In this document: one piece after another, positions 7,321 to 39,347 of the stretch
How the letters are laid out: each line of letters starts with the position of its first letter
Position numbering within the stretch: the stretch's first letter is position 1
IMG/VR virus record: IMGVR_UViG_3300046796_000521
Span: 1 to 39,974 of that record
Strand: one strand, 5' to 3'
Length of the DNA: 39,974 nucleotides
Source: a virus
The notes under the pieces: model-generated
What the model was told of the DNA's origin: nothing
The model's database searches: none
What the model saw: only the letters and a program-made list of their open reading frames with translations
Made by a program: the position numbers and the translations under genes

Positions 7321-8130
7321 CTACTTCGGCTGCGGGAAGTTGAGATTGGTCAGCTCGCCGCTCCGCGTGATCAACATGCGATCCATCGGCCGCGCCTCAC
7401 GGAACGCGTTCCACGACCGCACGAACAGCGCGAGCTGCTCCGCCCGCGTCAGCCGATCGATCCGGAGGCGGGCCATCTTGTTGCGCAGTGCCAGGACGGC
7501 CGACCGGTCCGGCAGATTCGCGCCGGAGATGTACTGGTCGAAGAACTGGTGCGTCAGCTCGACATCGATCCGCGAGAACAGGAAGTGAGCGACACCCGAA
7601 GGAGTGCCTGCGCCGAGACCCCTCTGCTGGCAGTCCCCGGCCCGCTTGGCTGCGGCGTCGAACGGGCCCGCTTCCAGCCGGTACCGGTCGAGGATCTCCG
7701 TATTCGTGGGCTTGAGCGTCGAGGACTGACCGACGAAGAACTTCGCGTCCCACATGATGATCCACCGCACGATGCCGGACGTGCGCGCACGATCGGTCGC
7801 GTTCGCGATCTTCAAGACGTCCATGCCGGTCCGTGCCGCGCCGGAGTCGAGGACCTGCATCGCCGCTCGGGGCAAGCCGCGAGCCACGTCGAACTCGATC
7901 GGCACCCCGGCCTTCATGACGGCCAGAAGGCGGTTCTGACCGTCGACCAGGACCCCGTCCTCGTCGAACTTGATCGTCTCCCCGGTGTCGCTGTTCCACC
8001 GGCCGGAGAGCATGTCCCGCGCGTAAGACGGGATCTTCCCCGTCTTCGGCGACCGGTTGTTCTCGGCGTTCATCGCGAGCCACTGCTTCGCCAGGCTCGG
8101 CGTGACCGTCACCCTGTCGTAGGTGATCAC
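7321..8130 (-). CDS. ParB-like nuclease-domain protein
   Basis: 269 aa, GTG 8130 (GTGA overlap). The N-terminal 90 residues match phage ParB/Srx-like domains: a helix with AKQWLAMNAENNR, then SYARDMLSGRW, IKFDEDGVLVDGQNRLLAV (DGQNR at 63-67) and a strand VPIEFDVARGL. DGQxR is the characteristic loop. The C-terminal two-thirds are helical and may bind DNA. Many actinophages carry one; roles proposed include DNA or nucleotide binding and partition. Catalysis is not shown here. Confidence 0.75.
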   Translation of the reverse strand: MITYDRVTVTPSLAKQWLAMNAENNRSPKTGKIPSYARDMLSGRWNSDTGETIKFDEDGVLVDGQNRLLAVMKAGVPIEFDVARGLPRAAMQVLDSGAARTGMDVLKIANATDRARTSGIVRWIIMWDAKFFVGQSSTLKPTNTEILDRYRLEAGPFDAAAKRAGDCQQRGLGAGTPSGVAHFLFSRIDVELTHQFFDQYISGANLPDRSAVLALRNKMARLRIDRLTRAEQLALFVRSWNAFREARPMDRMLITRSGELTNLNFPQPK

Positions 8131-9770: not shown

Positions 9771-9845
9771 ATGCAGCGCTATGCAGTAGAGCGGATCAAA
9801 CGGATGAGGAGGCTCGACTCCTCCCGTCCCCTACGACTGCACATA

Positions 9846-9896
9846 CGGGACTGTTCCCGCCCACGGGACAACAGGCCCGCAAACGGGACTTACTGT
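9846..9896 (+). promoter_or_regulatory. Repressor promoter with ACGGGAC repeats
   Basis: Three direct copies of ACGGGAC lie at 9845-9851, 9863-9869 and 9883-9889 (spacing 18 and 20 bp). An inverted partner TTCCCG at 9854-9859 makes CGGGA-CTGT-TCCCG. A -10-like TACTGT (9891-9896) stands 6 nt before the GTG start at 9903, suggesting a leaderless transcript. The repeats are likely autoregulatory operators. Confidence 0.5.
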
Positions 9897-9902
9897 GACC
9901 GC

Positions 9903-10343
9903 GTGGCCGCAGCTCGTCTAGACCCCGCCGTAGCGCGCGCCCGGTTCGCCGTGTTCGTCGACCGGGCGCTCAAAGACGCCCGTGCCAGGGGAATGACCGA
10001 CCGCGAGATCGCGCGCCGCAGCAAGGTCGCCACCTCGACGTTCCACCGCTGGCGGCAAGCCGACGGGCGCGGCCTGCCCGAGCTCGACCGCGTACGCGCC
10101 TTCTGCGACGCCGTCGACGCCAGCATCGAAGACGCCATGCAGGCCCTCGGCATGACCAACGCCGACCCCGAGCCCACACCCGGACTCCCCATGCCCGACG
10201 ACGTCCGCAAGATCCTGCGGGTACTCGCCGACCCCAACGCCTCCGACGAGACGAAGCAGTTCCTCCGGATGAGCCTCAACCTGCTCGCCGGCCGGGCCGT
10301 AGACTCGCGCCCTTCCGACCAGCCAGGCGAAGCCGCCGGCTGA
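9903..10343 (+). CDS. Phage immunity repressor candidate (HTH)
   Basis: 146 aa from GTG 9903. An in-frame ATG at 9771 would add an Arg-rich peptide coded by the operator repeats, so the GTG start is preferred; a -10-like hexamer sits 6 nt upstream. An HTH lies at about residues 30-55: MTDREIARRSKVATSTFHRW, followed by LPELDRVRAFCDAVDASIEDAM as in XRE-like phage regulators. The C-terminal part is a short helical oligomerisation-like region. Next to the integrase and divergent from the excisionase, it is the best candidate for the lysogeny repressor. No LexA-type cleavage domain is visible. Confidence 0.75.
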   Translation: MAAARLDPAVARARFAVFVDRALKDARARGMTDREIARRSKVATSTFHRWRQADGRGLPELDRVRAFCDAVDASIEDAMQALGMTNADPEPTPGLPMPDDVRKILRVLADPNASDETKQFLRMSLNLLAGRAVDSRPSDQPGEAAG

Positions 10344-10387: not shown

Positions 10388-11659
10388 ATGCCCCGAAACC
10401 GCTACCCGAGCCTGAAGAAGGGCGACGACGGCCTCTGGCACGCCTGGATCACCGTCGGCACCAAGGCGAACGGCCGCCCCGACCAGCGTCACGTCAAACG
10501 CGCAACAAAGAGCGACGCCGAGGACCGGATCGACGAGCTGCTCAGCCAGGTCCGCACCGGCGCCGTCGTGAAGTCCGGGCACCTGACCGTCGAGCAGTGG
10601 CTGACCACCTACCTGGACACCGTGCTCCCGTCCACCGGCCGCTGCGACCCGGGCACCGTCAAGGACTACCGGTCGAAGATCGGGCACTGGGCGCTGCCCG
10701 TCATCGGCTCGACCCGGCTCGACCGGCTGCAGCCCGAGCAACTCGAGGCGGTCTACCTCGGCATGCAGCGCGCCGGCCGGGCCGCTAGTTCGGCGCTGAA
10801 GCTGCACCGGATCCTGTCCCGGTCCCTCGAGGTGGCGCTGCGCCGCAACCTGGTCGGCCGCAACGTCGCCAAGCTGATCGACGCCCCGAAGACCCGCCTC
10901 GTCGAGGAGGGGGCACTGACCCAGGAGGACGCGCTTGCCGTGCTCGCCGCGGCCGCCGGCCGGCGGAACTCCGCCCGCTGGTCGATCGGGCTGGCGCTCG
11001 GCCTGCGTCAGGGCGAGGCGCTCGGCCTGCGCTGGGCGTACGTCGACCTGGAGCGCGGCGAGATGCGCGTCTACTGGCAGTTGCGCCGGCGCGCGTTCGA
11101 CCATGGATGCGGCGGGACGTGCGGCCGCCGGCGTGGGGGTAACTGCCCGGCCCGGACCCTGGAGCTGCGCGACGGCGAGAGTGCGGTGCTGGATCTGTCG
11201 AAGCCCGTGACGTCGGACCGGCGGACGGGGCTGGTGCTGAAGGAGCCGAAGGGCAAGAGCAAGCGGACGGTGCCGCTGCCCGACGAGCTGGTCGCCCAGC
11301 TGCGTGCACAGCGCGACGTCCAGGACCTCGAGCGCATCATGGCCGGCCCGGCGTGGCAGCCGCACGACTTCGTGTTCGCCCGCGCCGACGGGCAGCCGGT
11401 CGACCCGAAGCGCGACTACGCCGAATGGCGGGATCTACTGACGGCCGCCGGCGTGCCGGAGAGCCGGCTGCACGACGCCCGGCACACGGCGGGCACGGTG
11501 ATGACGGCGCTGGGTGTGCCGATCCAGGTGGTGCAGGAGATCTTGGGTCACTCGGATCTGAGGGTCACCCGGCGGTACGTTCACGTTGCTTCGGAGATGG
11601 CCCGGGCGGCTACGGACCGCATGGGTTCGATCTTGCTTAAGAAGCCAAGTACACCCTGA
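10388..11659 (+). CDS. int: Tyrosine-family phage integrase
   Basis: 423 aa, ATG 10388 preceded by GGGAGG. Domains in order: arm-binding N-terminus (1-60), SAM-like core-binding domain (about 65-165), catalytic domain (175-410). Active-site residues are visible: R207 in GLRQGE, H362-x-x-R365 in LHDARHT, H388 in LGHSD and nucleophile Y397 in RRYVHV. Residues 239-253 carry a Cys cluster (HGCGGTCGRRRGGNCP), an insertion known in actinobacterial integrases. It catalyses site-specific recombination between attP (core at 11719-11764) and a host tRNA-Thr gene. The last codons overlap the first 32-bp arm repeat, so the gene and attP are one unit. Confidence 0.95.
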   Translation: MPRNRYPSLKKGDDGLWHAWITVGTKANGRPDQRHVKRATKSDAEDRIDELLSQVRTGAVVKSGHLTVEQWLTTYLDTVLPSTGRCDPGTVKDYRSKIGHWALPVIGSTRLDRLQPEQLEAVYLGMQRAGRAASSALKLHRILSRSLEVALRRNLVGRNVAKLIDAPKTRLVEEGALTQEDALAVLAAAAGRRNSARWSIGLALGLRQGEALGLRWAYVDLERGEMRVYWQLRRRAFDHGCGGTCGRRRGGNCPARTLELRDGESAVLDLSKPVTSDRRTGLVLKEPKGKSKRTVPLPDELVAQLRAQRDVQDLERIMAGPAWQPHDFVFARADGQPVDPKRDYAEWRDLLTAAGVPESRLHDARHTAGTVMTALGVPIQVVQEILGHSDLRVTRRYVHVASEMARAATDRMGSILLKKPSTP

Positions 11660-12409: not shown

Positions 12410-12607
12410 ATGGTCAAGTTGGATCTCATGGGCACGGTTGAGATCCGCGAGCGCCTGGGTGTCGGCAAGTCCCGCGTCTACCAGATCGTCAACTCGAAAG
12501 GCTTCCCCGAGCCGGTCGCCCACGTCTCCGGCGTCACCATCTGGCTCGCCAAGGACGTCGAAGCCTGGATCGCCAAGCATCGGCCGCCGAAGGATCCGCA
12601 CGCCTAG
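12410..12607 (+). CDS. AlpA/MerR-like HTH protein, copy 1
   Basis: 65 aa, ATG 12410. Pattern MGTVEIRERLGVGKSRVYQI then KGFPEPVAHVSGVTIWLAKDVEAWI is that of AlpA/excisionase-type small regulators of mobile elements. It is a paralogue of the protein at 13408-13611: both have 12 residues before the shared EI..RLGV helix and end with DVEAWI..HRP. Probably a DNA-binding regulator of integration or transfer genes. Its TAG stop lies inside CTAG, which also gives the stop of the convergent gene at 12604. Confidence 0.8.
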   Translation: MVKLDLMGTVEIRERLGVGKSRVYQIVNSKGFPEPVAHVSGVTIWLAKDVEAWIAKHRPPKDPHA

Positions 12608-13394: not shown

Positions 13395-13400
13395 TAGCGT
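13395..13400 (+). promoter_or_regulatory. -10-like box of a leaderless gene
   Basis: TAGCGT lies 7 nt before GTG 13408, in line with the same arrangement at 9891, 12396 and 28745 and, on the other strand, at 18538. This supports the GTG at 13408 as the start rather than the in-frame GTG at 13399. Confidence 0.4.
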
Positions 13401-13407
13401 GATCAAC

Positions 13408-13611
13408 GTGAGTAAGGGTCGCCTCTACGGCACGTCAGAGATCGCCGACAGACTCGGCGTGACCCGGCAGCGCGGCCACGTCATCACGCGCCAAAAGGGA
13501 TTCCCCGAGCCCTACGACGAACTGATCATGGGCTCGGTATGGCTCGTCGAGGACGTCGAGGCGTGGATCCGCGAGCACCGGCCTGAGCTGGCCGAGGACC
13601 CAGAGAGCTAG
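13408..13611 (+). CDS. AlpA/MerR-like HTH protein, copy 2
   Basis: 67 aa from GTG 13408; this start makes the N-terminus the same length as the paralogue at 12410. LYGTSEIADRLGVTRQRGHV, then QKGFPEPYDELIMGSVWLVEDVEAWI, is the same small HTH fold as in copy 1. Two paralogous regulators 1 kb apart suggest a duplicated or mosaic regulatory block. Confidence 0.8.
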   Translation: MSKGRLYGTSEIADRLGVTRQRGHVITRQKGFPEPYDELIMGSVWLVEDVEAWIREHRPELAEDPES

Positions 13612-13617
13612 ACCCGC

Positions 13618-13866
13618 TCACTCATCGGCGTCTCGCCTCGGCCCGACCTTCCGGTTGATCGTGGCGCGGCCGATCTCCGTCTTCCGTGCGATCACCGGGT
13701 CAGAGATGCCGGCCCGCCGCGCCTCCTGGATCAGGGGCCAGATCTTGTCTTCCTCCTGGCGGGATTTCTCGACCTGCCGCAGGAGCCGGGCCATGACGCG
13801 TTCCTGCTCTTCCGTGCCACGCCAAGGTCCCCTGATCACGGGGCTGACGCTACCAGACTGTCTCAT
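13618..13866 (-). CDS. HTH regulator of the transfer-like operon (candidate)
   Basis: 82 aa, ATG 13866. The C-terminal half has a Hin/resolvase-like HTH: IQEARRAGISDPVIARKTEI, then GRATINRKVGPRR. The N-terminal helix (ERVMARLLRQVEKSRQEED) may dimerise. Its start codon lies inside the palindrome GTCTCA-TTC-TGAGAC (13860-13874), and further GTCTCA copies cover the promoter of the divergent operon. It is the obvious candidate for a KorA-like autorepressor controlling the translocase operon. Confidence 0.7.
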   Translation of the reverse strand: MRQSGSVSPVIRGPWRGTEEQERVMARLLRQVEKSRQEEDKIWPLIQEARRAGISDPVIARKTEIGRATINRKVGPRRDADE

Positions 13867-13951
13867 TCTGAGACATCTCCTCTTGCCTGTTCGGATCGGA
13901 CAGGGCTATGGTGTCTCACATGTTGTCTCATTGCAAGACAACTTCCGAGAC
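13860..13951. promoter_or_regulatory. Promoter and GTCTCA operators of the transfer-like operon
   Basis: Plus-strand promoter: TTGCCT (13883-13888), 18-bp spacer, TATGGT (13907-13912). Operators: palindrome GTCTCA-TTC-TGAGAC at 13860-13874, GTCTCA at 13913 and 13925, the inverted pair GTTGTCT...AGACAAC (13922-13942), and GAGAC at 13947. These flank the start codon of the divergent regulator and the likely +1 of the operon. Confidence 0.65.
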
Positions 13952-13970
13952 AAGATTCAAAGGAACCCGC

Positions 13971-14166
13971 ATGAGCCTCGGCAACACGATCCTCTGGCTC
14001 ATCGGCGCGCTCGTCGAAGGCGTCGTCTTCTGCGTCGTCATCCTCTCGGTCCGCCGCATCACCAAACCCCCGCCGCCACCGGCTCGACGACCGGGCGCTG
14101 CGCGGCGAGCTGATCGTCCGCAGGCCCGAGCTGCCCGCCCCGCCCCAGAAGGAGTTGACCCGATGA
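13971..14166 (+). CDS. Small membrane protein with apparent +1 frame break
   Basis: From ATG 13971 the frame codes for a membrane helix (LGNTILWLIGALVEGVVFCV) and a basic end, then runs in frame into the next gene. However, the sensible continuation is in the +1 frame: after AAACCCCC (14064-14071) it gives RRHRLDDRALRGELIV and LPAPPQKELTR, and stops at TGA 14164-14166, overlapping the ATG of the DUF2637-like gene (ATGA) as nearly everywhere in this genome. The +1 frame has no start codon of its own. Either a one-base C insertion (real or sequencing) or a programmed +1 frameshift at CCC-C is needed. The unbroken product would be about 64 aa. Confidence 0.5.
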
Positions 14167-15023
14167 CCGAGCCGATCGTGTCCTGGCGCAGCAAGGGCCT
14201 GCTCATCGGCATCCTGCTGCTGGTCAACTCCGCCGCCATCTGGGGGCAGGCCGGGTGGGCGCTCGACCACATCGTCCCGGCCGGATGGGACTGGCGGGCC
14301 GGCCTCGCCCTCGCCCTCGGCTTCGCGGCCGCGCTCGAGCTGATCGGCGTGTTCCTGGCGACCATGGCCGACGAGGCGGAGGCGCGCCGTCAGCCCGCGG
14401 GCGGTATCCGGCTGGGCTCCTACGCGGTCGGCCTCGTCTCCGGCGGGCTGAACGTGTCGCACTGGGGTGTGTTGACCTCAGCCGCGTTCGCGTTCGGGTT
14501 CCTGTCGGCCGTGTCGCCGTTCCTGTGGGGCATCTACAGCCGGGTGCGGCGCGGTGAGCCGATCGCCCCGTCGCGCCGCTTCTGGCACCCGATCGCCGCT
14601 GTCCGGCTGATCCGGTTCATGGCGTGGCGCGGGCTGACCGACGAGCTGGCCGCGATCGACGCGATAGCGGCGGCCGACGCAGCCGTGGCGCAGTCCGCGC
14701 CCGAGCCCGTCCGGGTGCTGTTGCCAGCGGCGCCGGTGTTCCTGCCGCCGGTGAGTGCGCCACCGGCCGATGCCGACGAGCCGGAGTTTGGCGCAGCCGA
14801 GCCCGACGATCGCGCTGGTCTGAAGGTGCGTCAGGACGGCCGGGCGACGCAGGAAATCGAGACGGCGGTCCGCGCCATGCGCGCGGCCGATCCGGGCGCG
14901 TCTCAGCGAAAGATCGCGGCGGCGGTGCTGGTGTCGCCGTCCACCGTGCGGCGCATCCTCGCGCCGCCGGAGAAGGTCAACGGCAAGGTGCCGGACCTGG
15001 AAGGAGTCGGCGCCGGTGGCTGA
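14163..15023 (+). CDS. DUF2637-like membrane protein with C-terminal HTH (Spd-like)
   Basis: 286 aa from ATG 14163. About four membrane segments: GLLIGILLLVNSAAIWGQAG, GLALALGFAAALELIGVFLA, SYAVGLVSGGLNVSHWGVL and AAFAFGFLSAVSPFLWGIYS. A Pro/Ala linker follows, then a C-terminal HTH (ASQRKIAAAVLVSPSTVRRIL). This matches DUF2637-type proteins of actinomycete plasmids and integrative elements, encoded next to TraB/FtsK and associated with plasmid spread. It overlaps the translocase gene by 8 nt, so the two are coupled. Role in a phage: unknown. Confidence 0.75.
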   Translation: MTEPIVSWRSKGLLIGILLLVNSAAIWGQAGWALDHIVPAGWDWRAGLALALGFAAALELIGVFLATMADEAEARRQPAGGIRLGSYAVGLVSGGLNVSHWGVLTSAAFAFGFLSAVSPFLWGIYSRVRRGEPIAPSRRFWHPIAAVRLIRFMAWRGLTDELAAIDAIAAADAAVAQSAPEPVRVLLPAAPVFLPPVSAPPADADEPEFGAAEPDDRAGLKVRQDGRATQEIETAVRAMRAADPGASQRKIAAAVLVSPSTVRRILAPPEKVNGKVPDLEGVGAGG

Positions 15024-16626
15024 TCTGTTCAGGGTGTGGCTTCCCGTGTCGTCGGCGGTCGCTGTCGTGGCCGCCGACGAAGGGCACGCGGCCGCCACGG
15101 CGATCGCCGCCGTGGCGCTCTACCGCAGCCGCCAATACCTGCGCGAGCGGCGATTCCGGCGCGAGTACATCGAGCCGACCCTGGCCGCGATGTCCCCGGC
15201 ACTCGGCCTCGAGGCATCACAGGTGCGCCTGCACGTCGACCCGTCCCTGGGCAACCTGACGCCCAGGCTGGCCAAGCCGCTGTCACCTGCAGAGAAGTGG
15301 GTCCGGCTGCGGTACGGCGAGCACGTCGAGCCGGTACTGCGGTGGCTGCCCGAGCGGGCACAGCGCGGCATGTGGGCGGTCCAGCGCAGGGCGCGGCCGG
15401 TCACCGGGAAGGCCGTGCTGCTGCGCCGGCCCCGCGAGGACGCCGGGCCGCGGATCGAGTTGGTGGCGCGGACCCCGTACCTGACGAGCGAGCAGCGGCA
15501 GCTCGTCAACGCGATCGTCAAGGCGAAGATTCCAGCTGGAGATCTTGTGGAAGCGTGGCATCAGGTAGGAGCGCGGGTCCGGGCCGTGTGGACCGTACGG
15601 AAGCGGCCACCGTCGGCCGTCGGCCTCGAGCACGTCCTCGCGCACCTGCCGAAGCTGAAGGAGTGGGAGTACTACCTCGGCCAGGCCGCCGGCGACGTGC
15701 CGGTGGTGGTGTCGCTACGGGACGACTCGCCGCACATCTCGGAGTCCGCCGGGTCGGGCGCGGGCAAGAGCGTGCTGGCCATGCTCATCGCCGTGCAGGT
15801 GCTGGCTCGCGGCGGCCGGGTGCTGCTGCTGGACCGGAAGGGCTCGCACCGGTGGGCGCTGGGCATGCCGGGCGTCGACTACTGCACCAAGGCCCCGCAG
15901 ATGCACGACGCGCTGCTGCGGGTCTCGGGCATGGCCAACGAGCGCAACGACCTGGCGCTGCACGAGGAGGAGGACTGGGATCCGGGCCCGCGCACGCTGG
16001 TGATCGCCGAGGAGTTGAACGCGACGATCGCGCAGCTGGCGAACTACTGGGCCGACGTGCGGGAGAAGGGTGAGCCGAAGAAGTCCCCGGCGATCGCGGC
16101 GCTGGCGGATCTGCTTTTCATGGGCCGGTCGGCGAAGGTGAACGTTCTGGCCATTGCCCAAATGCTCACCGCGCGGGCTATCGGCGGTCCGGAGGCTCGG
16201 GAGAATTTCGGCATTCGCTGCCTCGCGCGCTATACGGCGAACAACTGGAAGATGCTCGTTCCCGAGGCTGCGATGCCTCGCGCGTCGCGGACGCTGGGCC
16301 GGTGGCAGGTCGTCATCGGAGGAACGGCCACAGAGGTACAAGTCGCCTACCTCACCACAAAACAGGCTCGTGCCCTCGCGAATCCGGGCGCGGGGCTTGT
16401 AGGCGGGCTGAGCAGCGTTGTTACCGGTGACGGTAACAAGGTCACCTTGCGGGAAGCCGCTGACGGCGGGCTGATCCCCTGGTCGTACGAGGCAGCGAAG
16501 CAGCGGCTGTACCGGCGCGTCGGGAACCTGCCCGAATCGCGCGGCACGAAAGGCAAGTCGTTCCTCTATGAGGAAGCCGATTTGGTGCGCTGGGTGGAGA
16601 GCGTGAACTCGGAGTCGGTGCCATGA
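15016..16626 (+). CDS. FtsK/SpoIIIE (TraB-like) DNA translocase
   Basis: 536 aa, GTG 15016. The N-terminal 45 residues are hydrophobic (membrane anchoring). An FtsK-type ATPase core follows: Walker A AGSGAGKS (245-252), LLLDRKGSHRW after it, Walker B TLVIAEELN (327-335), then a conserved stretch LLFMGRSAKVNVLAIAQM. The C-terminus (about 472-530) has an AlpA-like HTH (LREAADGGLIPW and FLYEEADLVRWVES) where TraB proteins carry a winged helix that reads 8-bp repeats. In Streptomyces plasmids this enzyme alone moves double-stranded DNA between mycelial cells. Here it is in a phage lysogeny region under its own regulated promoter. Confidence 0.85.
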   Translation: MADLFRVWLPVSSAVAVVAADEGHAAATAIAAVALYRSRQYLRERRFRREYIEPTLAAMSPALGLEASQVRLHVDPSLGNLTPRLAKPLSPAEKWVRLRYGEHVEPVLRWLPERAQRGMWAVQRRARPVTGKAVLLRRPREDAGPRIELVARTPYLTSEQRQLVNAIVKAKIPAGDLVEAWHQVGARVRAVWTVRKRPPSAVGLEHVLAHLPKLKEWEYYLGQAAGDVPVVVSLRDDSPHISESAGSGAGKSVLAMLIAVQVLARGGRVLLLDRKGSHRWALGMPGVDYCTKAPQMHDALLRVSGMANERNDLALHEEEDWDPGPRTLVIAEELNATIAQLANYWADVREKGEPKKSPAIAALADLLFMGRSAKVNVLAIAQMLTARAIGGPEARENFGIRCLARYTANNWKMLVPEAAMPRASRTLGRWQVVIGGTATEVQVAYLTTKQARALANPGAGLVGGLSSVVTGDGNKVTLREAADGGLIPWSYEAAKQRLYRRVGNLPESRGTKGKSFLYEEADLVRWVESVNSESVP

Positions 16627-16859
16627 CAACCGCGTTCGTGTTCGGATTCGCTGTCGGCGGCTTCGTGTTCTGGAACGTGTCGGCGGCCGTCGAGCGATTC
16701 CGCCGTGCCCGCTGGGATTTCAACGCCACCCGGCGCGGCTTGCGTTCCCTGATCGAGATGATGTGGGCCCGCGGCATGCAGGCGGTCAAGGGCTGCCTGC
16801 TCGCGGCCGGCGTCATCGCCGCCGTGGTCCTGGTCTGGCACGGGCACAACTACCGGTGA
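16623..16859 (+). CDS. Small two-TM protein of the transfer-like operon
   Basis: 78 aa, ATG 16623 overlapping the translocase stop (ATGA). Hydrophobic segments FVFGFAVGGFVFWNVSA near the N-terminus and GCLLAAGVIAAVVLVWHG at the C-terminus flank a basic middle part (RFRRARWDFNATRRGLR). Small membrane proteins in this place in actinomycete plasmids are called Spd proteins; similarity here is of layout only. Confidence 0.65.
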   Translation: MTTAFVFGFAVGGFVFWNVSAAVERFRRARWDFNATRRGLRSLIEMMWARGMQAVKGCLLAAGVIAAVVLVWHGHNYR

Positions 16860-16869
16860 AGGAGTGGAG

Positions 16870-16995
16870 ATGACCAAGGAGCCGTACCGGCTGCCGGATC
16901 GGCCGAGGCGCGATACGCGGCCGACGACTCAGGAACTGAGGGACCGGCTCGCGGCGATGAGGCTGCTGCAGGCCGGGCGCGAGGGCAAGAACTAG
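16870..16995 (+). CDS. 41-aa basic protein, last gene of transfer-like operon
   Basis: ATG 16870 with GGAG upstream, TAG at 16993-16995. The product is Arg/Asp-rich (LPDRPRRDTRPTTQELRDRL) and ends AGREGKN. It lies 10 nt after the previous stop and directly before a strong terminator. Not recognised. Confidence 0.55.
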   Translation: MTKEPYRLPDRPRRDTRPTTQELRDRLAAMRLLQAGREGKN

Positions 16996-17008
16996 GGGAA
17001 CGACGAAG

Positions 17009-17048
17009 AGCGCCCCGCCTCCCTCGTGATGAGGGGAGGCGGGGCGCT
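17009..17048. terminator. Terminator of the transfer-like operon
   Basis: A perfect 15-bp stem (AGCGCCCCGCCTCCC with its complement at 17034-17048), a 10-nt loop, then TTT. It separates the rightward transfer-like operon from the leftward holin gene and probably acts in both directions. The 65 bp from 17049 to 17113 hold nothing else visible. Confidence 0.85.
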
Positions 17049-17113: not shown

Positions 17114-17470
17114 CTACGCCTTCGCGTTACTCGCCGTGCCGTTGACCGTCGAGACCGCCGGCGCGACGGCGATGCCGAGGAAGCTGGCCACGGCGAAGGC
17201 GATGAGCAGCCAGTCGTTGGAGTCGACGCCGCCGACGATGACCGTGGTGGCGACCTGGAGACCGGCGAGGACAGCGCCGACGGCGGTCTTGGCCCAGCGG
17301 GCGCCGGGCACCAGCGGGACCAGGTAGGTCAACAGGGCGGTGCATACGGCGATGCCGATGGCGACGCCCTCGCTGGGGTCGATGTGGCCGTCGCCGGAGA
17401 ACAGGGGAACCGCGACGACGGCGACCGCGTAGACCGCGGCCACGATGCTCTTGCCGTAGGTCTGGAACAT
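17114..17470 (-). CDS. Holin-like membrane protein
   Basis: 118 aa, ATG 17470. Three hydrophobic segments: IVAAVYAVAVVAVPLFSG, GIAVCTALLTYLVPLVPG and LLIAFAVASFLGIAVAPA, with a short polar C-terminus. This is the form of an actinophage holin: HIDPSEGVAIG and PLVPGARWAKTAVGAVLAGL are common elements. It would permeabilise the membrane for the endolysin at 19449-20213. It is separated from the rest of the lysis block by the nuclease/RHH insert and reads leftward from just beside an SOS-like box. Confidence 0.7.
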   Translation of the reverse strand: MFQTYGKSIVAAVYAVAVVAVPLFSGDGHIDPSEGVAIGIAVCTALLTYLVPLVPGARWAKTAVGAVLAGLQVATTVIVGGVDSNDWLLIAFAVASFLGIAVAPAVSTVNGTASNAKA

Positions 17471-21598: not shown

Positions 21599-23143
21599 TC
21601 AGTACGAGAACTGGGCATCGTTGAAGCCCTGGCCGCCAACGTCGAAGCGGAACATGGTCGGCGGGTTATCGAGGCCGCCACCCTGGAAGGCGCCCTGGTC
21701 GAAGCCCTGGCCGGACACGTCAAACGTGAACGGGAGGGTCACCACGGCCGGGATCTTCTCCACGCCGAACGTCGTCACGTGCTCGGCGCCGCCCTGGCCG
21801 ATCGTGTGCTGGATCTGCTCGATGTAGCAGTCCGCATCCAAGCCGGTCAGCGACTCGGTCAGATGCACCCGGTCCGACAGGTTCCGGCTGATGCACTCGG
21901 CCAGCCGCGCCGCGCTGCCGGCGCCGCGCATCGTCACCTGCAGCGTCGGCAGCCGCTCGGCGCGCTTCGCGACGATCAGCTGCAGGATCGCCTGCGCGTC
22001 GTAGATACCCGCCCACACCGGCAGCCGGCCGTCCGCCAGGGATTTGCGGCCGTGCCGGTAGATGCTGACCGCGTCCTCGACGGTGACGGTGATGCTGGTC
22101 GCCTGGATCGCCTGCGCCCGCAGCGCGAGGTCCTGCACGATCGAGTCGCCCGTGGCGGTGATCGAGATGACCGTCGACTGGCCCGACGTGCGCGACAGGC
22201 TCATCGAGACGCTGCCGGACACGAGGGTGTAGTCGGTGTCCTGCACGGGTGCGATCGCATTGATGAACGGCTGCGACGCCCGCGCGGTGACGTTGAACGT
22301 GGTCCCGTTCGCGATGGTGATCTGCCCCTGGCTGGACCACACCTGGGACGCTGCCGCGTCGATGGTGTGCAGCGGCACCTCGGTGGAGATCGAGTTGACG
22401 ACCTCTTTCCAGCCGGCGTTGTAGGTCACCGGGTCGGAGATGCAGGGCTCGGTGCCCGACGACCGCCAGGTCGCCTGCGAGGTCAGCGACGCGGACCGGG
22501 TCAGCCGGTGGTGCCGGTCGCGGAACACGATCTGGCCCAGCGAGTTCACCGTGATCAGCGCCGACGGCCCGTCCGAGTCGACAAGCTCCAGCAGCGCGTC
22601 GAACGCGTCGGCCTCGCTCAGCCACCAGTACGGCAGGTAGGAGACGCCCGGGTCGATGTCGCGGGCGGTCGCCGACCAGCCGATCGCGTCGAGGATGTAG
22701 CCGATCGCGTCGCCGGTGCGGATGCCCTGGTAGAGCGGCGTGCTGATGGTGACGCCACGGAAGGAGCCGAGCGCGTCGATGCAGGTCGCCGGCACGGACT
22801 GGTCGTTGATGCCGGGCCGGATGTCGAGGTCGTCGAGGTAGCCGGAGTACAGCACCGTCGAGGTCGCGCCGACGGTCGCCTGCAGCTGCAGGTGCTTGCC
22901 GGGCGTGACGAACCCTGCGATCGGCGAGCTCGTGTTCTCCGGGCTGTAGTCGCGGGAGACGTTGTTCAGCTCGAACTGCATCTCGCCCGGGTCGATCGGC
23001 GCGAACTGGCGGGCCTGGCTGCGGCCGTACTTCACGACGACCGGGGTGCGCTGGTCGAGGGTCCGGGCGGTGACGTCGTCGTTGGTGACGTCGGAGAAGC
23101 CGTTGCCCTGCCAGTCGATCTGCAGCGTGTACCGGGCAGCCAT
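21599..23143 (-). CDS. Distal/minor tail protein
   Basis: 514 aa, ATG 23143 overlapping the tape-measure stop (TGATG). The N-terminus (RYTLQIDWQGNGFSDVTNDD) and the phrase EMQFELNNVSRDYSPENTSS are typical of siphophage minor tail proteins following the tape measure. Mixed beta domains with Ser/Thr-rich stretches. The last 42 residues contain a tandem repeat (FTFDVSGQGFDQGAFQ and FRFDVGGQGFNDAQF). It is likely part of the tail-tip baseplate. Confidence 0.85.
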   Translation of the reverse strand: MAARYTLQIDWQGNGFSDVTNDDVTARTLDQRTPVVVKYGRSQARQFAPIDPGEMQFELNNVSRDYSPENTSSPIAGFVTPGKHLQLQATVGATSTVLYSGYLDDLDIRPGINDQSVPATCIDALGSFRGVTISTPLYQGIRTGDAIGYILDAIGWSATARDIDPGVSYLPYWWLSEADAFDALLELVDSDGPSALITVNSLGQIVFRDRHHRLTRSASLTSQATWRSSGTEPCISDPVTYNAGWKEVVNSISTEVPLHTIDAAASQVWSSQGQITIANGTTFNVTARASQPFINAIAPVQDTDYTLVSGSVSMSLSRTSGQSTVISITATGDSIVQDLALRAQAIQATSITVTVEDAVSIYRHGRKSLADGRLPVWAGIYDAQAILQLIVAKRAERLPTLQVTMRGAGSAARLAECISRNLSDRVHLTESLTGLDADCYIEQIQHTIGQGGAEHVTTFGVEKIPAVVTLPFTFDVSGQGFDQGAFQGGGLDNPPTMFRFDVGGQGFNDAQFSY

Positions 23144-26100
23144 CAGATCTTCCCCTTGCGGCGGAGATCATCGATGGACGCGGCCAGCCAGCCCTGGACC
23201 TCCATGCGCGAGCCGATCACGCCGTGGTTCTCCAGCACCACGGTCACGCCACCCCCGCCGCTGCCCGCGTTCTGCCACATCGGGGTGACCCGTTCGGGCT
23301 GGTAGTTCTCGCCGAAGGAGTAGGTGCGACCGGACGCGCCGACACCGAAGATCGGCTCGGTGATCGTGCCGCCGTTCTTCATCGCCCAGTGGTCGTGGGC
23401 GTTGCCGCCGGCGAAGTTGTGCTGGTTCTCGATCAGCGCCGAGTAGCGGTGACGTGAGCCGTTGTGGATGTTCAGCGACTGCCACGGCGTGATCAGTTCC
23501 TTCGTGGCCCGCATGAAGTGCAGATTGATCCACTCGGCCAGCGGCTTCGACGGGGCGAAGTCGACCGCGCGGCCGAAGCCGTGGTAGCTCTTGTTGCCCG
23601 TCAGGGTGATCGCGCCGGGCCGGTAGTCCGAGTAGATCGGCATGCCTGGGAAAGCCATGCGGACGGCGGCTTCCATCCATTTGTAGCCTGGGCCGCCGCT
23701 ACCGCCGGGAGCCGAGAAGAACGGCGACGGCACCTTCGTCTTGCTCGCGTTCACCGGGTACGGCCAGACCATGCCGCCGCCGGCGTAACCGGGCCACTGG
23801 CCGGTCGCGTTCATGTAGTCCAGCGCGCCCGGCTTGGCGCTCTCCAGCGGAGCCCGTGCGCTCTTGTTCACCACGAACTCGTCGGCGTGCACGACGCCGG
23901 CCGGCTGATACTTCGCTCCGGGTCCGGTCCAGCCGCCGCCGGCGAAACCCGGCCCGTCGCCAGCGCCGTTGAGCCGGCCGATGGTGTTGGCGCTCTTCAG
24001 CGCCTGCTGCATCGCCGACAGCTTCCGCAGCTCCGCTTCGACCTTGCCCTGCCCGGTGACGTTCAGGTTCGCCGCGTACGGGCCCGCGAAGTGGTTCGCC
24101 GCGGTGTACGCGTCGTCGAGCTGCTTCTTCGCGGCCACCGCGCCCGGCGCCGTCGCCTTCGCCTCATACGTCCCGTCGTACTGGTCGGCAGCCTTCTTCG
24201 CCGACTTGAACTGGCCCTCGAGGTTCTTAATCTCGGTCTTGGACAGCCCGGCCGCGCGCAGTGTCGCGTACAGCGACGGCGTCATCTTCCCGTTGAACGT
24301 CTGTCCCAGCGACCCGACCGCGCCCTGCAGACCGATCGCCGCCACCGCCAGATCGCGGGTCGCCTGCTTGGCTTCCTTGCTGCTGGCCCCGTGTTCCTTG
24401 GTCGCCTTGGTCGCGGCCTTCTGCGCGTCGGCGAGACCCTCCTGGGCCTTAAGCAGCCCGAAGACTGGGTCGGTCTCCTGCTTCATCATGTCGCTGAGCT
24501 GGGACAGGGCGTCCCGCTGGCCGTTCGTGGCCGCGGTCGCCGCCTCGGTGGCGGTCTTGTACTTCTTCTGATCCTGCGCGCCAGCGCTGAGCTGGCCGTT
24601 CAGGTCGCCAGTGGCTGTCGCGGCGGCCATCGTCGAGGCCTTCGACGTCTCGAGGGCTGCCGCGTAGGCGGGGAACTGCTTGCGGACCTCCTCGAGGCTG
24701 ACGCCGTTGGTGGCCAACTCCTTGGACAGCGCCTCGAACGCGGCCTGTGCACCGGAGGTGTTGCCGCCGGACACCATCTGCGCCAGGGCGGTATCGACCG
24801 CCCCGATGCGCTCCTGCGTCTTCGCTAGCGACTCGTTCGTGCCCTTGAGTCCCGGGATGATCGCCTCGAGGCCGCCCTCGAGATTGCGGGCCCAGTCCTT
24901 GCGGTTGTTGCTCGTGTCGGCGACCAGGTCGAAGGTCTTCTTCAGGTCGCCCATGTTGTCGCCGAGGACCCGGGACGCCTCGCCGGCGGTCTTCCCGGAT
25001 TTCGCGTATTGCTCCAGGCCGACACTGAGTGCGTCGAGCTGCGGATTCAGGTCCTTCTGGAAGTGGCTGACAACCTCGCCCGCGATCTGCAGGGCGGCGA
25101 AGACGAGACCGATCTTGCCTGCTGCGGCCGAGAGCCGTCCCATTCCCGCTGCAGCGTTTGCGGCGGCCGGGCCCATCGCCTCCAGCTCGAGGCGGACAGC
25201 GGCCGTCGTCTTGCGCAGCTTGATCCAGCCCGCGCCGAGCACCAGCGCCGCACCGCCGAGCGCGGCCATCACCGTGATGGTGCTGCCGATCCACGGGGGA
25301 AGTTCGGAGAACGCGTTGACCAGCCCGTTGACGGCCTTGACCAGGACGCGCAGGCCACCGTTCGCGCCGGAGCCCGCCTGGATCGCCAGGGTTTCGATTG
25401 AGCCTTTCAGGCGTTCTATGTCGCCGGCGAGGTTGTCGGTCTGGATCCGGGCGGTCTCGGCCGCGTAGCCTTGGTCGTTGACCTTGTCGATCCATGTCTG
25501 GATGCCGGCCGCGCCCTGCTGGTAGAGGACGTTCGCGGTACGGATCGCGTCGGAGCCGAAGATCTGCGCCAGCGCGGCGTCGCGCTGCGCCTGGGTCAGG
25601 CCGCCGAGCTTGGTCTTGAGCTGCTCGGCCAGGTTGGTGATGCCGACGAACTTGCCCTGGGCGTCGTAGGCGGCGATGCCCAGGTCGTCCATCAAGGCCT
25701 TGGTCTTGTCCGCCGGGTTCGCCAGCGACAGCAGCATCTGCTTGAACGACGTACCCGCATCGGAGCCAGTAAGGCCCGCCGAGGCGAAGGCGGCGAGCGT
25801 GCCCGTGGTGTCCTCCACCGACAGGCCGAACTGGTGCGCGACCAGGCCGCTCTGATTGAGCGCGTAGCCCAGGTCGTGCACGGAACCCTGGGCCTTGCCG
25901 GCGCCGGCGGCCAGCAGATCCGCGATGTGCGGGATGTCCTTGCCCGACAGCTTGAACTGCGTCATGGCGCTCGCCGCGGTCTCGGCGGCCTCGCCGACGG
26001 ACAGCTGACCGGCCGCTGCGAGCGACAGCGCGCCCTTCAGTCCTCCGTTGAGCACATCGGCGGTAGATACGCCTGCCTTGGACAGCTCGGTGATGGCGTC

Positions 26101-26436
26101 GGCGGCCTGGGTGGCCGAGTACTGGGTGTCCTTGCCCGCCTGTAGTGCCGCCTCGCGCAGCATGCTGATGTCTTTCGCGCCCGCGTGGGTGGCGGCCTGG
26201 ACGCCGGACATGGCCTTGTCGAAGTCGGCGGCGGCTTTGATCGCGTAGCCTGCCATGCCCGCGAGGGAGAGGCCGACGACGCCCGCTCGGTCGGCCACCT
26301 TGTCCAGGTGCCCGGCCTTGGACGCCTTGTCTATTCCGGTGGCGAAGTCTTTGGTTGCCGCGCCGGCCCGGCCGATGGCAGACATGTACTGCGAGACGTC
26401 CGCGGTGAGCTTGACTCCGACTGTGCGCAGCGCCAC
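23143..26436 (-). CDS. Tape measure protein with embedded M15 peptidase
   Basis: 1097 aa, GTG 26436 with GAGGTG upstream. The first 350 residues match phage tape-measure (TP901/PhageMin_Tail) regions: LREAALQAGKDTQYSATQAA and ELSKAGVSTADVLNGGLKGA. Hydrophobic segments lie around residues 380-420 (WIGSTITVMAALGGAALVLG) and long Ala/Lys helices follow. The C-terminal part has a VanY/M15 signature: S950-x-H952-x-x-G-x-A-x-D959 and H1014-x-H1016, all zinc ligands present. It sets tail length and probably opens peptidoglycan during DNA entry. Confidence 0.95.
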   Translation of the reverse strand: MALRTVGVKLTADVSQYMSAIGRAGAATKDFATGIDKASKAGHLDKVADRAGVVGLSLAGMAGYAIKAAADFDKAMSGVQAATHAGAKDISMLREAALQAGKDTQYSATQAADAITELSKAGVSTADVLNGGLKGALSLAAAGQLSVGEAAETAASAMTQFKLSGKDIPHIADLLAAGAGKAQGSVHDLGYALNQSGLVAHQFGLSVEDTTGTLAAFASAGLTGSDAGTSFKQMLLSLANPADKTKALMDDLGIAAYDAQGKFVGITNLAEQLKTKLGGLTQAQRDAALAQIFGSDAIRTANVLYQQGAAGIQTWIDKVNDQGYAAETARIQTDNLAGDIERLKGSIETLAIQAGSGANGGLRVLVKAVNGLVNAFSELPPWIGSTITVMAALGGAALVLGAGWIKLRKTTAAVRLELEAMGPAAANAAAGMGRLSAAAGKIGLVFAALQIAGEVVSHFQKDLNPQLDALSVGLEQYAKSGKTAGEASRVLGDNMGDLKKTFDLVADTSNNRKDWARNLEGGLEAIIPGLKGTNESLAKTQERIGAVDTALAQMVSGGNTSGAQAAFEALSKELATNGVSLEEVRKQFPAYAAALETSKASTMAAATATGDLNGQLSAGAQDQKKYKTATEAATAATNGQRDALSQLSDMMKQETDPVFGLLKAQEGLADAQKAATKATKEHGASSKEAKQATRDLAVAAIGLQGAVGSLGQTFNGKMTPSLYATLRAAGLSKTEIKNLEGQFKSAKKAADQYDGTYEAKATAPGAVAAKKQLDDAYTAANHFAGPYAANLNVTGQGKVEAELRKLSAMQQALKSANTIGRLNGAGDGPGFAGGGWTGPGAKYQPAGVVHADEFVVNKSARAPLESAKPGALDYMNATGQWPGYAGGGMVWPYPVNASKTKVPSPFFSAPGGSGGPGYKWMEAAVRMAFPGMPIYSDYRPGAITLTGNKSYHGFGRAVDFAPSKPLAEWINLHFMRATKELITPWQSLNIHNGSRHRYSALIENQHNFAGGNAHDHWAMKNGGTITEPIFGVGASGRTYSFGENYQPERVTPMWQNAGSGGGGVTVVLENHGVIGSRMEVQGWLAASIDDLRRKGKI

Positions 26437-37721: not shown

Positions 37722-39347
37722 TCAAGCGCTGTAGGCGTAGGCCTCGGCCGTCGTTGTCCAGCCGCCGGCCGCCGTGACGTCGCCGGCGGCTTCGTGGGCG
37801 AGGATCGAGCAGATCGCCAGGTCGATCTTCTGGGTCTGTGACGGCTTGCCCAGCACGTACCGCAGGTTCGGGCGGGCCAGCTTGCGGGCGTTACGGATGT
37901 GCGTGGCGACCATGGCGTTGCCGTCGTGGGCGAAGCCGGTGTCAGCCTTCACCACGTCGGTGTGCAGCCGGACCGCCGCCGCGTGCATCTGGTTGAGCCG
38001 GTAGGTCTCCCAGCGCAGCACGACCTTCTCGCCGTACCGCTCGGCCCACTCGTCGAGCTCGGTTTTCCAGCCCGGCGGGTCCGCGTACATCCTGACCACC
38101 GAGTACCGGGCGAAGATCTCCTCGACCGCCGCCGCGACCTCGAGGCGGGGCACCTGCCCGGAGAACTCGGCCGGATTCCAGACCGCCGGCCGCCGGTCGG
38201 GGCCGTACGTCGGGGTGAACTGGTAGCCGTCGCCGGTCTCGGCGCGGATCCCGGTCCAGTCGTCGACGTCCGAGCCGTCGAAGCCGAGCACGATCATGGT
38301 CCCGGGCGGCACTGCGCGCGACGCCGCCCGGGCGTCCCACGAATTACCCTCCAGCCACGATCCGGCGCCGTAGACGATCCGGTTGCCGAAGAACCGCTCG
38401 GCCTGCCCGATGTCCCGGTGCGCCAGGTCGGCGGCCTCGGCCTCGATCGAGTCGAGGTCGATGTGCCCGCCGCGGGACTTCAGGCTGTCGCCGTAGACGA
38501 TTCGGTGGATCTTCCGCCGCTCGACCTTGTTGCCGTACGACAAGTTCGCCGGAGCCTGCACGAAGTCCCGGTTGATGTCCGTGGCCGGCGACTCGAAGGC
38601 GAGTTGCGCCACCGACGCCTCCGCCGGGTCCCAGCCGTTCGTCGTCAACGCCGCTCGGCCACCCATGCCGGCGAGGCCGCGGTACTGGGTGTCGGCGACC
38701 TTGAGCATCTTGTTGGTCGCGTTCCACAGCCCGACCTCGTCCTGCGGGACGAACGTGACGCGCTGGCCGAGGCGGGACTGGGCGCTCGAGGTGACCGTGT
38801 CGACCCGCCCGCCGCCCGGCAGCCGGATGAACTCCTCACCGGTGCGCGGGATCAGCTCGGCCAGCGGCCCGTACTCGATCATCGGCCGGAGCGCGCCGTA
38901 GATGTTGTCGGTCTGCTCCTCGGACAGCGCCGTGATCTGGATCAGCGGCGTCGACCAGGCTCGGCCCATCGGCTCGCCCGGCTCGTACTCGTAGATGAAG
39001 CCGCAGCCGCAGCCGTGATCGCGGCAGTCGTAGACCTCGCCGCCCTCGGCCCAGCCGTCGAACAGCACCGGCCCGACGCCCTCGGCGCAGACCTGAGCTG
39101 CCGTGAGCGGGCCTTTGCCCCACTTCTGCGGGCGGACCAGCAGCGAGCGCCGGAAACGGAACGCAGGGGCGAGCTGACCGATCCGAGCGGTCGGCTTCAG
39201 CTCGTAGTGCCGGTCGAAGTACGTGAGTTGCTCGTCGTAGAGCCGGAACGGCTTCCCGCGGTCGTCCCGGTCCGGGATGACGCAGTGCGCTTCGATCCAG
39301 CAGGCGATGAGCGGGCCGAGAGACTGCCTACTGGCCGGCGGCGGCAC
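37722..39347 (-). CDS. terL: Terminase large subunit
   Basis: 541 aa, GTG 39347, overlapping terS by 20 nt. The ATPase domain has an unusual Walker A, RPQKWGKGP (72-80), where Gly replaces the usual Ser/Thr, and Walker B VTFVPQDE (D203, E204). Residues 104-124 insert a Cys/His patch (YDCRDHGCGCGF). The nuclease domain has GFDGSDVDDWTGI, YADPPGWKTELDEW and a final Asp in KIDLAICSIL. It powers DNA packaging and cuts the genome. Confidence 0.92.
   Translation of the reverse strand: MPPPASRQSLGPLIACWIEAHCVIPDRDDRGKPFRLYDEQLTYFDRHYELKPTARIGQLAPAFRFRRSLLVRPQKWGKGPLTAAQVCAEGVGPVLFDGWAEGGEVYDCRDHGCGCGFIYEYEPGEPMGRAWSTPLIQITALSEEQTDNIYGALRPMIEYGPLAELIPRTGEEFIRLPGGGRVDTVTSSAQSRLGQRVTFVPQDEVGLWNATNKMLKVADTQYRGLAGMGGRAALTTNGWDPAEASVAQLAFESPATDINRDFVQAPANLSYGNKVERRKIHRIVYGDSLKSRGGHIDLDSIEAEAADLAHRDIGQAERFFGNRIVYGAGSWLEGNSWDARAASRAVPPGTMIVLGFDGSDVDDWTGIRAETGDGYQFTPTYGPDRRPAVWNPAEFSGQVPRLEVAAAVEEIFARYSVVRMYADPPGWKTELDEWAERYGEKVVLRWETYRLNQMHAAAVRLHTDVVKADTGFAHDGNAMVATHIRNARKLARPNLRYVLGKPSQTQKIDLAICSILAHEAAGDVTAAGGWTTTAEAYAYSA

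Follow-up and report, generated by a model that had tools for sequence, protein, structure and literature searches.

A candidate DNA-transfer operon shared with integrative elements in a temperate siphophage of soil actinomycetes

We analysed the viral contig IMGVR_UViG_3300046796_000521 over its whole length (the entire IMG/VR contig, 39,974 bases, called the window below). The virus is one of soil actinomycete bacteria, and its genome carries a plus-strand operon at 13971-16995 that encodes a motor ATPase and a membrane partner. It is rather likely that this operon is an actinomycete module for cell-to-cell or intramycelial transfer of double-stranded DNA (dsDNA), shared with integrative elements and used by the prophage. 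This explanation is preferred because the fold of the motor matches the coupling protein TcpA and the FtsK motor, because the motor and its upstream partner recur on the plasmids pRL2 and pFRL6 and on chromosomal loci resembling actinomycete integrative and conjugative elements (AICEs), near which no other motor of the FtsK/TraB type was detected, because a DUF2637 protein fills the partner slot in sister phages, and because one relative keeps the partner genes and replaces the motor by a protein of the FtsK/SpoIIIE type. The operon and its flanks contain the following features.

13618-13866, minus strand: divergent small helix-turn-helix (HTH) protein, candidate repressor of the operon (phrog_686 HTH DNA-binding protein, E 3e-4)
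13859-13952, no strand assigned: predicted palindromic operators around a weak candidate promoter (repeats, TGTCTCA copies, layout)
13971-14162, plus strand: small protein with one transmembrane (TM) segment, frameshifted in the window (TM prediction; reading frames and alignment to loci L003-L005 and L066)
14163-15023, plus strand: four-helix membrane protein with C-terminal HTH and VNGKVPDLEGV tail (weak HTH matches; TM prediction; AlphaFold2 model)
15016-16626, plus strand: motor ATPase of the pRL2-11 family, FtsK/TcpA/HerA class (alignment, AlphaFold2 model, Foldseek, dN/dS)
16623-16859, plus strand: small two-TM protein (TM prediction)
16864-16995, plus strand: open reading frame (ORF) of 43 amino acids (aa), end of the operon (codon-position G+C typical of genes here)
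17009-17048, no strand assigned: terminator-like hairpin, perfect 15-bp stem followed by TTT (repeat and hairpin analysis)

The motor contains Walker A at residues ~246-252, Walker B with an invariant EE at ~327-333, and a C-terminal winged helix at ~475-533. In the AlphaFold2 model its C terminus has the order helix-helix-strand-strand-helix, which corresponds to a predicted winged HTH. An FtsK-class RecA-like fold with both Walker motifs and a predicted C-terminal winged helix are features expected of TraB and of the Tra proteins of AICEs. Foldseek with the model retrieved TcpA first (E 9e-12), then FtsK (E 6e-8) and EccC, and TcpA was also the best sequence match of the motor profile in PDB (E 1e-4). 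Pfam gave only sub-threshold matches, to DUF87/HerA and AAA_10, and NCBIfam gave weak hints of TraD, TraC and CedD. FtsK_SpoIIIE (PF01580) was not matched by the motor at E 0.1, and a PF01580 search of the host genomes listed none of the L012-L022 motors. Profile comparison of the motor core yielded probabilities of 91% for host FtsK and 90% for pIJ101 TraB, values so close that they do not separate the two; pIJ101 TraB itself matches single plasmid proteins of the pRL2-11 type with ~40-45 bits. Similarity over the motor core connects the window motor with 70 plasmid records (best E 7e-69), mostly from Streptomyces. Judged by sequence similarity, the motor thus belongs to a separate pRL2-11 family and not to TraB. 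An earlier note, made from the DNA letters alone, had described an FtsK/TraB-like ATPase with Walker A/B and a C-terminal HTH; the motifs, the HTH and the FtsK class hold, but the assignment to TraB does not. The motor groups with plasmid and AICE-like motors and is not a packaging enzyme. Two other identities were considered and rejected: a packaging ATPase, ruled out by the separate terminase and by the TcpA/FtsK fold match, and a host FtsK, ruled out as the nearest proteins are of the pRL2-11 and AICE-like types and PF01580 is missed.

The AlphaFold2 model of the membrane protein contains four long helices, a disordered linker and a three-helix HTH (mean predicted local distance difference test, pLDDT, 63). 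The same note had expected a DUF2637-like membrane protein with an HTH. The membrane region and the HTH are present, but no DUF2637 (PF10935) match was found for the window protein even at E 0.1, whereas the proteins in this slot of the sister phages L003 and L005 do match DUF2637 (40.7 and 50.8 bits, respectively; cut-off 22.8). A search of isolated phages with the membrane protein of the window or of L003 gave no match. The four-helix domain is common to L020, L064 and L065, and the HTH tail with the C-terminal VNGKVPDLEGV stretch resembles that of L003. Short tails containing NG (e.g. VNGKVPDLEGV, VNGTRPEL) recur behind the HTH despite differing membrane domains; they were seen in the window and in L003-L005, L015, L020, L045, L047, L049, L066 and L105. 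Such a tail is possibly a docking peptide for the motor. The first third of the DUF2637 profile aligns with the second half of the membrane region in L003 (9057-9785), L005 (8759-9541) and L015 (9135-9830), compared with L012 (9075-9845). Judged by eye from the profile coordinates, the membrane halves in L003, L005 and L015 look as if swapped by circular permutation; in L013, L014 and L022 the soluble part, also by eye, apparently precedes the membrane part.

A small membrane protein had been noted as the first gene of the operon. This is true of the sister phages L003-L005 and of L066, where a small one-TM gene is separate and intact, but not of the window, where the frame opened by the ATG at 13971 continues into the next protein and no separate intact small ORF exists. 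A single surplus G near 14092-14094, absent from L004, joins the small gene and the membrane gene of the window in one frame. It may reflect a natural fusion, a mutation or an assembly error.

Across loci, the membrane partner is more variable than the motor. The reverse is observed in L066 (501-3312), where the small protein of the L003 type (63%) and the DUF2637-like partner (76%) are retained and the motor is exchanged for an unrelated-looking protein of 688 aa of the FtsK/SpoIIIE type, with weak similarity to FtsK_SpoIIIE (E 0.006) and with plasmid relatives annotated FtsK. Since each component can vary while the other is kept, the conserved core seems to be a membrane-anchored DNA-binding partner together with a dsDNA motor.

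The motors of Streptomyces plasmids (pRL2, pFRL6 and others) are 36-47% identical over the core to the window motor. In pRL2 and pFRL6 the motor gene is preceded by a DUF2637 gene, and the pFRL6 copy is annotated Tra. Among Micromonosporaceae genomes, 25 of 355 have the motor, a few of them only as fragments or distant members. Eleven chromosomal motor loci come from Micromonospora, Plantactinospora and Salinispora. In the neighbourhoods read, the chromosomal copies are mostly AICE-like: several have an integrase or serine recombinase, and no structural genes were recognised. The motors of the AICE-like loci are 51-71% identical to the window motor in alignment, with a figure of about 65-70% for the AICE-like loci among the 25 Micromonosporaceae genomes. 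Over stretches of 13-21 kb at the eleven loci, phmmer detected no other FtsK/TraB-like motor. The suggestion that the operon represents a gene set of actinomycete plasmids and integrative elements is thus supported for the pair of membrane protein and ATPase.

One possibility is that the pair handles DNA inside the mycelium: anchored in the membrane, the translocase would distribute excised or replicating phage genomes over the hyphal compartments or resolve multimers, and no DNA would pass to another mycelium. The motor class does include FtsK, the membrane partner carries a predicted DNA-binding tail, and ORF63 of the Thermobifida phage P1312 has been proposed to act in DNA segregation (PMC4569894). 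However, the phage has an integrase and integrates, which makes partition less needed, and the pair occurs on AICE-like elements and on plasmids annotated as transferable; we therefore regard this possibility as unlikely.

The operon forms one unit, with palindromic operators and a divergent HTH gene at one end and a strong terminator hairpin at the other. The operator palindromes are TGTCTCATTCTGAGACA at 13859-13875 and TGTCTCA/GAGACA and TTGTCT/AGACAA sites at 13912-13952. The motif TGTCTCA occurs three times in the 40-kb contig, each time within 13859-13930, inside palindromes built on TGTCTCA/TGAGACA that separate the divergent HTH gene from the operon. A consensus scan detected no sigma-70 promoter for the operon; a weak candidate, TTGCCT-18-TATGGT, is situated between the operators. 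The consensus terminator scan did not list the hairpin at 17009-17048. Hence, of the promoter, operators and terminator claimed earlier, the operators and, as a hairpin, the terminator were recovered, and the promoter only as a weak candidate. The two further small proteins of that description are the two-TM protein and the 43-aa ORF. The former is kept 3' of the motor, with 78-86% identity in L003-L005 and 50% in L007; the divergent HTH protein has a homologue in L007 (40%). The L003 operon has the same layout as that of the window, but another divergent gene and another palindrome, GGTGTCATGACACC. As both repressor and palindrome differ, repression of the operon seems to have been retained across these phages while the repressor was exchanged.

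The minus strand carries the late and most early genes, the plus strand the repressor, the integrase and the operon. This siting, on the strand that the late genes do not use, hints at a function during lysogeny, and it could fit a membrane complex that stops the DNA of other phages or elements by superinfection or entry exclusion; the membrane domain also differs among close phages, as it would under an arms race. On the other hand, exclusion does not call for a conserved winged-helix dsDNA motor, and the pair is as common on AICE-like loci. Protection of the lysogen is thus quite improbable.

A transfer module under repressor control would operate as follows. In the lysogen, the small repressor bound to the operators would hold the operon off, as kor genes do with plasmid tra genes. 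Once the repressor is released, the membrane protein would insert where hyphae touch or at a septum, and excised or replicating phage DNA would be kept at that site by the HTH tail. With its C-terminal winged helix seating it on the DNA, the FtsK/TcpA-like motor would then drive dsDNA into the adjacent compartment or a recipient, and there the phage integrase would integrate it anew. The prophage could in this way spread within and between mycelia without lysis, in addition to spreading as virions.

Several observations speak against such a module. In the window the first, small gene carries a frameshift, and the AlphaFold2 model of the motor is only moderately confident (mean pLDDT 70). TM prediction found no clear TM segment in the window motor, only short hydrophobic stretches. 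Several distant relatives score two TM segments, and it may be the partner protein that contributes the membrane function. The 8-bp clt-like repeats proposed earlier as binding sites did not materialise: no cluster of such 8-mers exceeded the shuffled background in the window, although sites unlike the known clt could escape this search. Finally, the open-licence literature yielded no transfer data on members of this motor family.

The note had left open whether the operon has relatives in phages; it does. In IMG/VR the motor occurs on 27 other contigs, 16 of which have a terminase. The only isolated phage with a related motor is Streptomyces phage Dagobah (36% identity over 48% of the query), and two further phages, pZL12 and P1312, have a different motor of the Tra type. 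The motor and a terminase lie on one contig ~20 kb apart or less in the genomes G184 and G177, and at least 178 kb apart in G072 and G310. In G184 the operon forms one continuous block with terminase, portal and tail-like genes; beyond this block comes an ABC-transporter gene of host type, so that the locus looks like a prophage. This apparent prophage comprises L113 and L105 (G184:C34:258000-297900) in a Micromonosporaceae genome. In the motor tree the window groups with L003-L005, and the chromosomal copies lie between. L006 and L007 are paired with support 89/96, below the strict threshold. The tree gives no definite count of the exchanges that phages and AICE-like elements have made.

Pairwise dN/dS (nonsynonymous to synonymous substitution) ratios of the motor are 0.13-0.32, and the motor is under purifying selection. 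This bears on the notion of passenger DNA, an AICE fragment caught in the phage with no role for it. Close kinship to the AICE-like copies and the frameshifted first gene would agree with a passenger, but a passenger is highly doubtful given selection on the motor, the operators, hairpin and downstream small protein that are kept, and the same slot, between the integration and lysis genes, in the window and in L003-L005. A role in the virion, with the motor aiding DNA entry or packaging, would suit its location in a phage genome but has hardly any likelihood, as the phage has its own terminase, the operon lies on the strand opposite to the late genes, and the pair exists on elements without virion genes.

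The remainder of the genome fits a temperate siphophage, defined by its terminase, portal, head, tape measure, integrase and repressor genes. The operon was correctly described as lying within a phage with head, tail, lysis and packaging genes. The major landmarks are as follows.

9771-10343, plus strand: repressor
10388-11659, plus strand: tyrosine integrase (phrog_1, E 3e-57)
17114-17470, minus strand: holin-like protein
23143-26436, minus strand: tape measure
37722-39347, minus strand: terminase large subunit (phrog_19179, E 5e-135)

Portal, protease, scaffold, major head protein, major tail protein and endonuclease VII are also encoded. Two small excisionase/AlpA-like HTH genes lie at 12410-12607 and 13399-13611; homologues of such genes adjoin the motor in phages and in AICE-like loci (e.g. 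L012, L013, L016). A search for exact terminal repeats of 11-200 bases found none in the contig. A ParB-like match at 7324-8130, of interest for a phage-plasmid, is weak (E 0.005), and the same genome has an integrase. An AICE is defined by an integrase, an AICE-type replication gene and Tra, without virion genes; the window has virion genes and is not an AICE, although no search aimed at AICE-type replication genes was made in it. Relatives of the motor in the tree and in genomes point to a member of the Micromonosporaceae as the probable host.

Tentatively, and with somewhat less confidence than in the transfer function itself, we propose that a lineage of integrating Micromonosporaceae siphophages disperses both by virions and by regulated mycelial conjugation of dsDNA, with a motor invisible to PF01580 and with motor and membrane parts repeatedly exchanged with AICE-like elements. 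Should the motor carry the prophage from cell to cell, these phages would blur the border between viruses and conjugative elements as a recurring strategy, and not as the single plasmid-phage pZL12 does. In mycelial bacteria, crossing of septa without lysis would pay. The operon is small and self-contained. A survey of AICEs recognised Tra by PF01580 (PMC3218068) and would not have counted this candidate family of transfer motors; thus actinomycete conjugative elements are probably undercounted.

One Streptomyces phage capable of conjugation is already known. Conjugal transfer using the tra gene and its neighbours has been reported for pZL12 (PMC3583192), and the title of Zhong et al. 2010, as cited in PMC4487206, describes it as a plasmid-phage whose transfer was studied. 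The genome of pZL12, or phage ZL12 (GQ919031), is, like the window, that of an actinomycete phage, from Streptomyces, and its annotation has an FtsK/SpoIIIE-like tra gene with neighbouring genes. However, it is a 90-kb plasmid-phage with ParA/ParB, and its motor pZL12.71c falls outside the window motor family (hhalign probability 9%). This protein is homologous to P1312 ORF63 (E 9e-28 in a small set, 26% over 517 aa), and the two form a second, Tra-type motor family of isolated actinophages (KT021004, 40484-42526; GQ919031, 58658-60835). P1312 thus has an analogous motor of the pZL12 type, without a DUF2637 match, and the window motor differs from both. Dagobah is an isolated actinophage with a related motor of 309 aa, but lacks the operon. 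Open-licence papers on DUF2637 and pRL2 contained nothing on transfer, and none was found on hybrids of phages and conjugative elements; earlier accounts of phages carrying this operon may exist elsewhere.

Outside phages, pRL2, pFRL6 and other linear plasmids of Streptomyces share the motor family and the upstream DUF2637 gene, but no virion genes were recognised in the part seen. AICE-like loci share the motor, the membrane partner with HTH and a nearby integrase or serine recombinase; their replication genes are different, and the stretches read showed no recognised structural genes of phages. TcpA, the coupling protein of the clostridial plasmid pCW3, is the best fold and sequence match to the motor among solved structures, but it belongs to another conjugation system, whose other genes were not seen in the window. 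The TraB/SpdB2 systems of pSVH1, pIJ101 and pJV1 are distant in sequence, and the window differs from them in that the FtsK_SpoIIIE model missed its motor, clt-like repeats were not found and the repressor is not GntR-like. In pSVH1, the membrane protein SpdB2 forms oligomers, binds DNA and interacts with TraB (PMC4170104). As in these systems (PMC4170104, PMC3583192), the window has a single dsDNA motor with a predicted C-terminal winged helix, a putative DNA-binding membrane partner and an apparently repressor-controlled operon. By this analogy, the best explanation is that the window operon would work like the one-motor dsDNA transfer system of actinomycetes, TraB with SpdB2.

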